Assembly (NCBI RefSeq): GCF_900119315.1
Contig: NZ_LT827010.1
Span: 7,186,001-7,250,000 of the forward strand
Direction of reading: 5' to 3'
Origin: Actinoplanes sp. SE50/110
GTDB taxonomy: Bacteria; Actinomycetota; Actinomycetes; Mycobacteriales; Micromonosporaceae
Length of the DNA: 64,000 nt
In this document: positions 46,832 through 54,218 of the stretch, in pieces
Position numbering within the stretch: the first letter of the stretch is position 1
How the letters are laid out: the number at the start of each line of letters is the position of its first letter
Notes under the pieces: generated by a model
Database searches by the model: none
What the model was told of the DNA's origin: nothing
The model's input: the letters and a program-made list of their open reading frames with translations, nothing else
Program-made: the position numbers and the translations under genes

Positions 46832-47458
46832 TCAGGAGCGGGCGGAACCGTTCACGGCACATCCGACGGGAGCGCTCGTCGGCGCCGCCGCGAACCCGAA
46901 GCCGAAGGTGACCGTGTCGCCGGCGCCCAGCGCCGCACCGGCCGGCCGGAACGTGACGACCGTCCCCGACTGTGCCACCGCGACCTCCCCGGAGGTCACC
47001 GTGACCGGCTCGCCGCCCGGCACGCTGAGCGTGACGGTCCAGTCCGCCGCCTCCCCGCCACCGGCGTTGACCACCTGCACCGAGCCCCGGTGGCTGCCGT
47101 CGTCGTAGTGGTAGACCGCGCTCAGCACCGCCGGCGTCCCGGTGTCGGCCGTCTCGCCGCCGGCCGCCACCACCGGCCGGCGCCGGGACAGCCAGCCGCG
47201 CACGATCGCGACAGCGGCCGACGCAACGCCCGAGGGCGGACCGCCGGGCGTGGCGGAGGCCGGCGGGACCACGAGCCGCAGCCGCGGTACCACCGGATAC
47301 GGTTCCGAGGTCGCGGCGAATCCGAGGATCTCCTCGGCCGGCGCCGGCGCCGGCACCGCGGCCGTCTCCGCCGACGCGGACCACCCGTCCAGCCCGCCCT
47401 CGACGGGAGCCTGCGCCTCGCTGCCGGGGACGGGCTCCCCCGTGGTGTCACCAGTCAC
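46832..47458 (-). CDS. CBM2-like (cellulose-binding fold) domain protein without visible signal peptide
   Basis: 208 aa from GTG 47458. The N-terminal 100 residues are low-complexity (APVEGGLDGWSASAETAAVP). The C-terminal 100 residues have family-2 carbohydrate-binding features: SVQVVNAGGGEAADWTVTLS, then FRPAGAALGAGDTVTFGFGF and APVGCAVNG at the end. The surface Trp residues needed for cellulose binding are few, and there is no obvious signal peptide or membrane anchor, so the role is unclear. A frame extending to 47578 is possible but has a weak start context. Confidence 0.6.
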   Translation of the reverse strand: MTGDTTGEPVPGSEAQAPVEGGLDGWSASAETAAVPAPAPAEEILGFAATSEPYPVVPRLRLVVPPASATPGGPPSGVASAAVAIVRGWLSRRRPVVAAGGETADTGTPAVLSAVYHYDDGSHRGSVQVVNAGGGEAADWTVTLSVPGGEPVTVTSGEVAVAQSGTVVTFRPAGAALGAGDTVTFGFGFAAAPTSAPVGCAVNGSARS

Positions 47459-51195: not shown

Positions 51196-51645
51196 ATGGC
51201 CGAACCGCTCAGCGAGACCCAGATGCAGCACTGGCGCGCGTTCATCGAGAGCTCGTGGGCGCTGCACACCGCACTGGAGGACGAGCTGCGCGCCGCGACC
51301 GGCCTGAGCATGAACGACTACCACGTGCTCGTCGCGCTCGCCGAGGCTCCGGACCGCCGGATTCGGATGGGCGAGCTGGCGAACCGGCTGGTGCTGTCGC
51401 CGAGCCGGATCACCTACCAGATCAGTTCGATGGTCAAACGCGGACTCGTCGAGAAGCAGAGCTGCCCGGACGACAAGCGCGGCTACGAGGCGGTCCTGAC
51501 CGATGCCGGGCTGACCGCGCTGCGCGAGGCCGCCCCGGCGCACCTCGAAACGGTTCGACGGCGATTCATCGACCGGCTGGAGCCCGACGAGCTGGCGGTG
51601 ATCGGCCGGGCGTTCGCCAAGATCAGCGACGCGCATCGCTCCTAG
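51196..51645 (+). CDS. MarR-family transcriptional regulator
   Basis: 149 aa winged helix: YHVLVALAEAPDRRIRMGEL, LVLSPSRITYQISSMVKRGL (recognition helix) and the wing SCPDDKRGYEAVLTDAG. ATG 51196 follows GAAGGAG at a slightly long spacing. MarR proteins usually repress their own operon and neighbouring redox or resistance genes. The shared operator-like element suggests it also controls pirin at 55430. Confidence 0.9.
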   Translation: MAEPLSETQMQHWRAFIESSWALHTALEDELRAATGLSMNDYHVLVALAEAPDRRIRMGELANRLVLSPSRITYQISSMVKRGLVEKQSCPDDKRGYEAVLTDAGLTALREAAPAHLETVRRRFIDRLEPDELAVIGRAFAKISDAHRS

Positions 51646-51685
51646 TCAATATCGATCGTCGATGGTATGAACTTTGTTACACGTG

Positions 51686-51699
51686 TGGGAGCGCTCCCA
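51686..51699. promoter_or_regulatory. Perfect CebR-type box (LacI family)
   Basis: TGGGAGCGCTCCCA, a 14-bp perfect palindrome identical to the operator of CebR, the cellobiose-responsive repressor of cellulose-utilisation genes in Streptomyces. It lies 35 bp before the RCC1-repeat gene start. No cebR gene is in the window. Confidence 0.85.
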
Positions 51700-51734
51700 C
51701 TGCCACCGTCGACAACGTTTGGAGTGATCGGCAG

Positions 51735-52910
51735 ATGAGCGAAACGCAGGCCGCCCCGCCCCCGGCCCGCTGGCGACGGGCAGCCTTCGCCCTGGCGACG
51801 GCCGCCGCCTTCCTGTTCGGCATGCCCGCCGGACCAGCCGGCGCCGCCCCCACGGCCGCCCTTTCCCGGATTGCCGCCGGATATGCGCACAGTTGCGCCA
51901 TCCGCACCGACCACAGCCTGTGGTGCTGGGGCGGCAACAGCAAGGGTCAGCTCGGCGACGGCAGTACCGTCAGCCACGGCAGCCCGACCCGGGTCGGCAC
52001 CGCCGGCGACTGGGCCGCCATCGACGCCGGCACCAGCTACACCTGCGGCGTCCGCACCGACCACAGCCTGTGGTGCTGGGGCGCCAACACCCGCGGCCAG
52101 CTCGGCGACGGCAGCACGACCAGCCGGAACACGCCGACCCGGGTCGGCACCGACAGCGACTGGGCGGTCGTCACCACCGGCGACAGCCACACCTGCGGCG
52201 TCCGCACCGGCGGCACCCTGTGGTGCTGGGGCTTCAACCGGCTCGGCCAGCTCGGCACCGGCATGTCGGTGTACACCGCGACCACGCCGCTGCAGGTCGG
52301 CACCGCCACCACCTGGTCGACCGTCTCGGCCGGTTTCGCACACACCTGTGCCACCCGCACCGACGGCACCCTGTGGTGCTGGGGCGACAACGGCGACGGC
52401 CAGCTCGGCCTCGGCGTGCTGACCCCGTCGGTCACCCCGGCGCAGGTCGGCACCGCCACCAACTGGGCGACGGTGACCGCCGGCTACGCCTTCAACTGCG
52501 CCACCCGCACCGACGGCACCCTGTGGTGCTGGGGCGACAACGGCTACGGTCAGCTCGGCGCGGGCGGCACGTACCAGACCGCGCCCGCCCAGGTCGGCAG
52601 CGGCACCACCTGGACCAGGGCGGACGCCGGCTTCAACACCGCATGCGGCGCCCGGACCGACGGCACCCTGTCCTGCTGGGGCAACAACGCCACCGGCCAG
52701 GTCGGCGACGGCAGCACGGTCAACCGCGGCACCCCGGTCCAGGTCGGCGCCACCACCACCTGGACCGGCGACTACGCCACCGGCTACCAGACGTGCGGAT
52801 TCCGCGCCGACCAGAGCCTGTGGTGCTGGGGCAACAACGCCAACAGCCAGCTCGGCGACGGCACCACCACTCAGCGCACCACCCCGGGCCAGGTCACCCT
52901 GCCCAGCTGA
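51735..52910 (+). CDS. Secreted RCC1-repeat (beta-propeller) protein
   Basis: 391 aa. A signal peptide of about 38 residues (RWRRAAFALATAAAFLFG, then AGPAGAAPT) is followed by seven repeats of about 50 residues. Each carries a variant of CAIRTDHSLWCWGGNSKGQL-GDGS and P-x-x-V-G-T, with a pair of cysteines per blade. This makes a seven-bladed RCC1-type propeller with likely disulfides, suited to the extracellular space. Bacterial members have no settled function. The upstream CebR box suggests expression together with cellulose-degradation genes. Confidence 0.85.
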   Translation: MSETQAAPPPARWRRAAFALATAAAFLFGMPAGPAGAAPTAALSRIAAGYAHSCAIRTDHSLWCWGGNSKGQLGDGSTVSHGSPTRVGTAGDWAAIDAGTSYTCGVRTDHSLWCWGANTRGQLGDGSTTSRNTPTRVGTDSDWAVVTTGDSHTCGVRTGGTLWCWGFNRLGQLGTGMSVYTATTPLQVGTATTWSTVSAGFAHTCATRTDGTLWCWGDNGDGQLGLGVLTPSVTPAQVGTATNWATVTAGYAFNCATRTDGTLWCWGDNGYGQLGAGGTYQTAPAQVGSGTTWTRADAGFNTACGARTDGTLSCWGNNATGQVGDGSTVNRGTPVQVGATTTWTGDYATGYQTCGFRADQSLWCWGNNANSQLGDGTTTQRTTPGQVTLPS

Positions 52911-52960: not shown

Positions 52961-53352
52961 AGTAGTACCAACGGTCGAGGTGGGTGCCGGAGCACTCGGC
53001 GGACTGCTGCAGATCCGTCTGCCGGTCCATGATCTCGTGCAGCTGCCCGTTGGCCGCATCGACGGCCGCCTGCGTGCCGGACAGGTCGCTCTCCGGGTCG
53101 AGGAGGTCGGTCATCCTGGAGTCCCGCTCCTGACGGGTCGCGATCAGGGTCTGACTGAGCTGGGTCCATCGACTCCTGGCATTGTTGCGCCTGCCGCTCG
53201 GCCTCGGCCTGCTGATCCGCCCCCGCCGGTGCCGCGTCGTCGGCGGCCGCGCCGGGCTCCCCGTCCGGGTTCAGCGGCAGCCCGGTCGTCGGCAGTCCAC
53301 AAGCCTGCTGCGTCTGGCTGGCGTGCACGCTCACCGACTTGAGCAGCGGCAT
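52959..53352 (-). pseudogene. Small coiled-coil protein gene with a frameshift
   Basis: ATG 53352 (overlapping the phosphotransferase stop as TGATG) opens MPLLKSVSVHASQTQQACGL. It continues through an Ala/Asp-rich segment to QAEAERQAQQCQE at about 53170-53185. From there coding character jumps to another frame: RWTQLSQTLIATRQERDSRM, then DLSGTQAAVDAANGQLHEIM and DLQQSAECSGTHLDRWYY ending at 52959. The joined product would be about 130 aa, helical, with a coiled coil. A one-base insertion or a sequencing error explains it. Confidence 0.65.
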
Positions 53353-54218
53353 CACCTCGGCGGCGTGGTCCCCAGACCGGCACCGGGATCCGCCTTGACC
53401 GCCCGCCGCGGGCCGGGCGGGATCGTCACGATCCGGGTCTCCTCCGCCGCACGCCGGTGACTTGCCCACTGCCCGGTCCAGTCCGCGAGGTCGTGCATCC
53501 AGGCCGGCGAGCCGGGCTTGGCTCTCGATGCCCACTTCGTTGCGTTCTTCGAGGCGAAGTCGTCAAGGACGTCCGGGCTGACCTCAGCCCATGCGGGAAA
53601 CCGCGCCAGCCAGTGTTCCGCCTGCTCGGGCGTGTGGCCGCTACCGATCAACCACTGTGTCAGCATTGCCAGCTCCACCCAGGGCGCCGCTCTGGTGGCG
53701 AATGCCCAATCGACGATGAACAGGCCGCGGGAGCTCACCATCAAGTTGGTCGGGGCGAGGTCGCTGTGGACGAGAACGTCACCGTCCATCGCCGGATGTG
53801 GGAACCCGAGCCGGCCCGTCGGCGTGAACAGCGGCACCTCGGGCGCCAGTGTCTTGCCGAGCCCTGTCAGCGCCTCAGCCAGAAGATCAAGGTGTGGGCT
53901 CCCCGGTGACAGGTCGGCGTGCGGGCCGTCGCAGTGCTCGAAGCCCACGACCAGCCAGCCGGCCGCCTCGAAGTGCCATTCGACCGCGGGCGAGTGAGGC
54001 CCCTTCACGGCCTCACTCACCCGCAGCTCGTAGCGCAGTGACCGGACGCCGAACTCGGTGCAGGCCGCCTTGACGAAAACCTTCCCGGCAGTCCCGCTGA
54101 CGGTTGCGGCTATCTCCGCGTGGTCGCCGGCCTCGGCGGGGACGGCGTGCGTTCCGCCGATTCGGGCGGCTACCTTCGTCGTGACCGCCTCGGGCAGTGC
54201 AGTCCAGTCAATGCGCAT
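53352..54218 (-). CDS. Aminoglycoside phosphotransferase-fold kinase
   Basis: 288 aa. The APH-family active site is VLVHSDLAPTNLMVSSRGLF (Brenner motif HxDxxxxN) followed by IVDWAFA (metal-binding D). An N-lobe with VFVKAACTEFGVRSL gives the ATP-binding Lys. It is too divergent from known resistance enzymes to claim resistance; many such kinases phosphorylate small molecules. It is coupled to the small gene downstream. Confidence 0.83.
   Translation of the reverse strand: MRIDWTALPEAVTTKVAARIGGTHAVPAEAGDHAEIAATVSGTAGKVFVKAACTEFGVRSLRYELRVSEAVKGPHSPAVEWHFEAAGWLVVGFEHCDGPHADLSPGSPHLDLLAEALTGLGKTLAPEVPLFTPTGRLGFPHPAMDGDVLVHSDLAPTNLMVSSRGLFIVDWAFATRAAPWVELAMLTQWLIGSGHTPEQAEHWLARFPAWAEVSPDVLDDFASKNATKWASRAKPGSPAWMHDLADWTGQWASHRRAAEETRIVTIPPGPRRAVKADPGAGLGTTPPR

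Follow-up and report, generated by a model that had tools for sequence, protein, structure and literature searches.

Does a short palindrome in the genome of the soil actinomycete Actinoplanes sp. SE50/110 place a gene coding for a secreted RCC1-repeat protein under the control of sugars released from cellulose? The palindrome, TGGGAGCGCTCCCA, lies in a stretch of 64,000 nucleotides (contig NZ_LT827010.1, positions 7,186,001 to 7,250,000), hereafter called the window, in which it is the sole match with fewer than three mismatches. An earlier note on this DNA had described the sequence as identical to the CebR box, had placed it 35 bp before the start codon of the RCC1 gene and had linked the exoprotein to cellobiose and cellulose signalling. 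We consider it very likely that the palindrome is a CebR/CelR-type operator, which controls the RCC1 gene together with genes coding for CBM2 cellulases. The two features concerned are:

51686..51699, no strand assigned: CebR-type operator TGGGAGCGCTCCCA, a perfect 14-bp palindrome equal to the published consensus
51735..52910, + strand: gene for a secreted seven-bladed RCC1 beta-propeller protein of 391 amino acids (Pfam, AlphaFold2 and PDB matches)

The CebR consensus given in the accessible parts of two publications (PMC5332605, PMC4898821) is identical to TGGGAGCGCTCCCA, as had been claimed for positions 51686-51699. The flanking bases extend the palindrome to 16 bp (GTGGGAGCGCTCCCAC, 51685-51700), and the spacing to the ATG at 51735 is indeed exactly 35 bases. 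The earlier note had also proposed a search for further boxes, and this proved informative: in the genome of 9.24 Mb, a single contig, the exact sequence is present at 10 places, versus none for the pattern read backwards, and with one mismatch allowed the numbers are 23 and 1, respectively. Eight of the ten exact boxes directly precede genes coding for CBM2 proteins with export signals recognised by eye, namely two GH6-CBM2 (L041, L047), three GH5-CBM2 (L043, L046, L048) and one GH12-CBM2 protein (L045), a Sortilin/BNR-repeat CBM2 protein that we read as GH74-like (L042) and a CBM2-fn3 protein in which no catalytic domain was recognised (L044). At these eight genes, the nearest in-frame start is located 7-36 bp behind the box, compared to 35 bp at the RCC1 gene. 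The remaining two exact boxes precede the RCC1 gene itself and an Lsr2 gene (L049). Among the 13 sites with one mismatch, five closely precede genes for polysaccharide enzymes (GH10-CBM2, L057; GH10-GH62, L058; GH9, L059; GH5-CBM2, L064; GH5, L065) and in one case an alpha-amylase gene (L061) follows at a distance of 127 bp; the other seven are without an obvious target, and some of them at least will be due to chance. The genome contains 26 CBM2 stretches, and many CBM2 proteins are therefore encoded without an exact box. Two of the sites deserve a separate remark. Approximately 500 N-terminal residues of the CBM2-fn3 protein (L044:4000-6087) are without a Pfam match at E<=0.001 and possibly represent an unrecognised enzyme. 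The box at L049:4001-4014 (G000:C1:7771042-7771055), 240 bp before the Lsr2-family gene, is the sole exact site besides that of the RCC1 gene which is not linked to a CBM2 protein.

The box is also kept in front of RCC1 orthologues in other species. A search of 300 family genomes yielded 113 orthologous loci (E <1e-130, the window's included; next match 3e-91), 110 of which were scored together, with the box sought between -400 and +60 of the start of the tblastn match. The named close relatives include Actinoplanes, Paractinoplanes, Winogradskya and Amorphoplanes, and further out Micromonospora, Dactylosporangium and Catenuloplanes. Before 46 of the 110 orthologues, the window's included, there is a box with no more than one mismatch, exact in 30 of them; when 60 permuted palindromes were used instead, none gave an exact match, and with one mismatch the mean was 0.05 and the maximum 1 of 110. 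By genus, the box is found at 41 of 55 loci in g1, the window's genus (the Actinoplanes group, own locus included), and at all five loci in g7, which roughly corresponds to Catenuloplanes. In one g1 locus (L091) it is present only at -347. All five g7 orthologues (L122, L130, L139, L140, L155) carry the same asymmetric variant, TGGAAGCGCTCCCA, which the accessible part of PMC5332605 lists before bglC of S. scabies. Exact boxes are present in all 67 genomes of the window's genus that were searched, with 2 to 29 copies each.

Even where the box is missing within the genus, the RCC1 gene is often found beside a box. Eight of the 14 boxless g1 orthologues (G194, G212, G246, G244, G161, G222, G198, G240) adjoin a CBM2 enzyme gene that is itself preceded by a box, exact in seven cases and with one mismatch in G244. 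No gene was called between the RCC1 and CBM2 genes in five of the eight, and a small opposite-strand gene lies between them in G222, G198 and G240. These arrangements support the link to CebR. In addition, a CBM2 profile made from ten of the genome's own proteins was scanned over 53 named loci, covering 5 kb on each side or less at contig ends, and a CBM2 reading frame was found near the RCC1 gene in 11 of 33 Actinoplanes-group loci versus none of 20 others. With an expected rate of 2.6%, which is based on our estimate of about 22 CBM2 genes per genome, the binomial P value is 5e-10, and 0.01 when one case per partner type is counted (4 of 33); both values serve as a guide only, since the named loci are related and some come from species that are also represented among the G genomes. 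Ten of these neighbours could be classified, namely four GH3 (L187, L190, L205, L214), three GH12 (L201, L202, L222), two GH9 (L216, L219) and one esterase-like protein (L188). In L201, L202, L216 and L222, two boxes are located near the RCC1 start, in the interval that separates the RCC1 gene from a GH12 or GH9 gene in divergent orientation. As an aside, a weak CBM2 stretch (31.6 bits) is present in the window itself at 46844-47092 on the - strand, in an open frame of 252 amino acids approximately 4.6 kb upstream of the RCC1 gene.

How might the operator act? Three further elements were read in the sequence around it:

51645..51650, + strand: possible -35 element GTCAAT, assigned by eye
51666..51671, + strand: possible -10 element TATGAA, assigned by eye and resembling elements upstream of some other orthologues
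51721..51724, + strand: GGAG, likely ribosome-binding site

If TATGAA is the -10 element, the operator would possibly span about +8 to +21. The box is found in different settings among the orthologues: in some it follows a TATGAA-like element, the arrangement seen in the window, and in others it lies in the spacer between a -35-like TTGAAT and a -10-like TAACCT or TAATCT, or follows TTGCAA- or TTGCCC-like elements. These settings were sorted roughly by regular expression, leaving 6 rows in no class, and compared with a tree of the 110 rows, which was built by a quick method with support from the Shimodaira-Hasegawa-like approximate likelihood ratio test (SH-aLRT) only and in which 35 of 107 inner branches are well supported. 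The six label groups need 17 changes on this tree versus a mean of 49.9 for shuffled labels. The orthologues linked to CBM2 genes are placed among the box-bearing ones, as if control by the box had been kept while the promoter was exchanged. This makes the locus a clean case of an operator that is kept by a gene while promoter and neighbours change. We also considered one promoter common to all orthologues, of the form TCAAn-N12-18-TAnnAA; this was borne out only in part, as the motif is present within 250 bp upstream in 15 of the 110 orthologues (versus 0.27% of shuffles), all of them in g1, g32 and g21.

Which protein reads the box? As a yardstick for CebR, we used a Streptomyces plasmid locus in which two exact boxes separate a lacI-type gene from divergent genes for a substrate-binding protein (SBP), two permeases and a GH1 beta-glucosidase; it resembles the S. 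scabies cebR/cebE/bglC set as far as listed in the accessible part of PMC5332605. In the Actinoplanes genome, 29 LacI helix-turn-helix domains score above the Pfam cut-off, and the best matches to the yardstick protein among them are L020 (G000:C1:8750766-8751782) and L022 (G000:C1:5863091-5864071:-), with 54% and 51% identity. L022 and the yardstick CebR share one recognition helix, GVGRGTVSRV. The helix VGRGTVSRV is found in 30 of 30 L022-type loci read, which are the top-scoring ones of a longer list; seven of the 30, own locus included, belong to the window's genus. A CebR homologue, the lack of which would have spoken against the earlier note, is thus present as a LacI protein with the CebR recognition helix, and L022 is the likely CebR candidate. 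We propose that a LacI repressor of the CebR/CelR type, most likely the L022 protein, uses the palindrome as a functional operator. When cello-oligosaccharides are absent, the repressor would sit just downstream of the RCC1 promoter and block initiation, and cellobiose or cellotriose, the presumed inducers, would release it, so that the RCC1 exoprotein is made and secreted alongside the CBM2 cellulases. Judged from sequence, regulation of the RCC1 gene by a CebR-type repressor appears well supported, and its control by cellobiose is strongly predicted.

There is a modest chance that the operator is real and that a different LacI paralogue, L020 for instance, binds it, in which case a related beta-glucoside may replace cellobiose as the signal. 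Of the two proteins, L020 has the slightly higher overall identity to the Streptomyces CebR, as given above, its gene directly follows a GH1 beta-glucosidase gene, and 110 of 121 family genomes contain matches to it at E<=1e-70, a count that takes in paralogues. However, its helix reads VSRATVSRV and not VGRGTVSRV as in the Streptomyces CebR and L022, and no box within two mismatches is present in the 12-kb region around it (L182), although none is close to L022 either. The attempt to pin down the regulator by its phyletic pattern failed: every LacI candidate is matched in 110 of 121 genomes at this threshold, which paralogues also pass.

Several observations weigh against L022-mediated control of the RCC1 gene, or limit its reach. 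The higher overall identity of L020 and the lack of a box around this GH1-linked regulator gene belong here. L022 is not adjacent to cebEFG, and its region holds only a two-mismatch site, far from the regulator gene. Two clusters with ATP-binding cassette (ABC) transporter and GH1 genes and LacI genes of their own, L183 (a LacI gene, an SBP-type ABC transporter and GH1) and L184 (G000:C1:6201000-6213000 and 7321000-7335000), contain no box within two mismatches. This is unlike S. scabies, for which the accessible part of PMC5332605 lists boxes at cebE, bglC and cebR. Within the window's genus, G090 has kept an L022-type regulator yet possesses only 2 boxes, and for six of the 55 g1 orthologues (G180, G119, G260, G218, G196, G192) neither a box nor a box-preceded neighbour was found in the fetched stretches. 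Outside the two box-bearing genera, none of the 50 orthologues of g4 (approximately Micromonospora), g21, g31, g32, g34 and g44 has a box within two mismatches between -400 and +60, and three further orthologues, beyond the 110 scored, are also boxless, giving 53 such loci outside g1 and g7. Yet in five genomes with a boxless orthologue (G034, G045, G060, G082, G096), a LacI protein with the VGRGTVSRV helix is encoded. Micromonospora-like genomes carry 0 to 2 exact boxes each, with 49 of 61 having any, and have kept the RCC1 gene without a box; the propeller is therefore not bound to CebR everywhere. For the window's genus, the analysis supports a stronger claim than the earlier note had made, and the proposed tie to cellobiose and cellulose signalling is supported by the boxes at CBM2 genes, the conserved operator and the CebR-type LacI protein.

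What would the RCC1 protein contribute? Pfam RCC1 (PF00415) matches seven stretches of the 391 residues. The AlphaFold2 model, for which the alignment took in 44 relatives, has a mean predicted local distance difference test (pLDDT) score of 91.7 and a predicted template modelling (pTM) score of 0.86, and by our reading its strands are arranged in seven blades, so that Pfam stretches, model and PDB matches agree on a seven-bladed propeller. Residues 1-31 have a pLDDT below 50, and a signal peptide was assigned by eye:

51735..51845, + strand: likely signal peptide, residues 1-37 (n-region RWRR, hydrophobic core, AGA before the cleavage site)

The earlier description of a secreted seven-repeat RCC1 protein thus holds. 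Its sequence makes export through the signal peptide likely, and outside the cell the protein probably stays free, since its chain ends with the last blade. Each blade contains two cysteines placed for a disulfide, all 14 of which are conserved, and conserved residues specific to individual blades include F167, R169, Y180, R120 and Y271. The likely export and the cysteine pair in every blade set the protein apart from the seven-bladed propellers of RCC1 and UVR8, and no evidence ties it to Ran or UV sensing. As the box is common to many cellulose-degrading enzymes and kept in most close relatives, this suggests that the RCC1 protein takes part in cellulose breakdown. Somewhat in favour over other roles, we picture a disulfide-braced extracellular binding platform, which would aid this process by holding on to wall glycans, or else by protecting the cellulases or acting as their partner. 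A point against such a role is that the protein has no catalytic domain or carbohydrate-binding module (CBM), as Pfam at E<=0.001 gave RCC1-type families only. More tentatively, it may found a new class of accessory proteins that have neither catalytic activity nor a CBM and that bind a wall polymer or organise free CBM2 cellulases into a working complex, and for which CebR control was kept in Actinoplanes by repeated promoter change or by moving beside box-controlled enzymes.

A rather unlikely alternative is that the co-regulation is real and the propeller has no part in digestion, inhibiting instead competitors or their enzymes while cellulose is digested. BLIP-II, a secreted RCC1-like beta-lactamase inhibitor of Streptomyces, would be the model for this. 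Among the best 50 matches of the fold search, the alignment to BLIP-II covers just 242-244 residues with 22% identity. We prefer the binding platform described above.

Finally, the box could be a chance palindrome or belong to the gene upstream:

51196..51645, + strand: gene for a MarR-family regulator (Pfam), on the same strand as the RCC1 gene

This gene ends 89 bp before the RCC1 start, but both ideas can be rejected with near certainty, as the reversed and permuted controls are near zero, and the box is conserved before many RCC1 orthologues without a marR homologue, which occurs in the upstream stretch of just two of the 110 (own included). The marR gene is probably an unrelated neighbour, judging from these stretches.

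We regard the RCC1 gene as an addition to a regulon that was already known. In common with the Streptomyces CebR (CelR) regulon, the box-preceded set here has the identical 14-bp operator, GH5, GH6 and GH12 CBM2 targets and a LacI protein whose recognition helix is unchanged. It differs in that a CBM-free RCC1 exoprotein is a member, and that the transporter/GH1 clusters seen here are without a box. Table 1 for S. scabies, in its accessible part, lists enzymes and binding proteins along with genes for transporters and thaxtomin, and no RCC1 protein (PMC5332605). In listings of the open-licence literature, we found no published link between RCC1 and CebR or a bacterial cellulose regulon, and no role for this exported protein turned up in our searches. 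An orthologous group of RCC1 proteins is tied to the cellulose regulon in most of a genus, which gives it a concrete, testable function, and a non-enzyme member is added to a regulon known, from the accessible literature, mainly for enzymes, uptake and binding proteins.

Two minor observations concern the surroundings of the RCC1 gene. Downstream of it, an APH-family phosphotransferase (PF01636, 36 bits) is encoded at 53352-54218 on the - strand. In addition, a hairpin, GGTGGGTCGC..GCGACCCACC followed by GGGGCA, is present within 100 bp before the RCC1 start at loci including L106, L125, L128, L133, L142, L145 and L172, and is a frequent feature of the leader in Micromonospora-like and other boxless genera. 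It was counted on 40 of 52 leaders, as no start was found by the rule used for the other 12. On these 40, 85.6% of cells pair and 18 cells change on both sides; the covariation is 0.225 versus 0.052-0.123 for slid versions, and four pairs changed on both sides, a number reached by 119 of 500 shuffles. The case for covariation is thus fair, not decisive, and the leaders of L109, L110 and L158 fit the hairpin poorly. Nine loci were searched against Rfam and gave no family at the gathering score; a weak match to a microRNA is surely due to chance. The hairpin could be an RNA element or the operator of another regulator.
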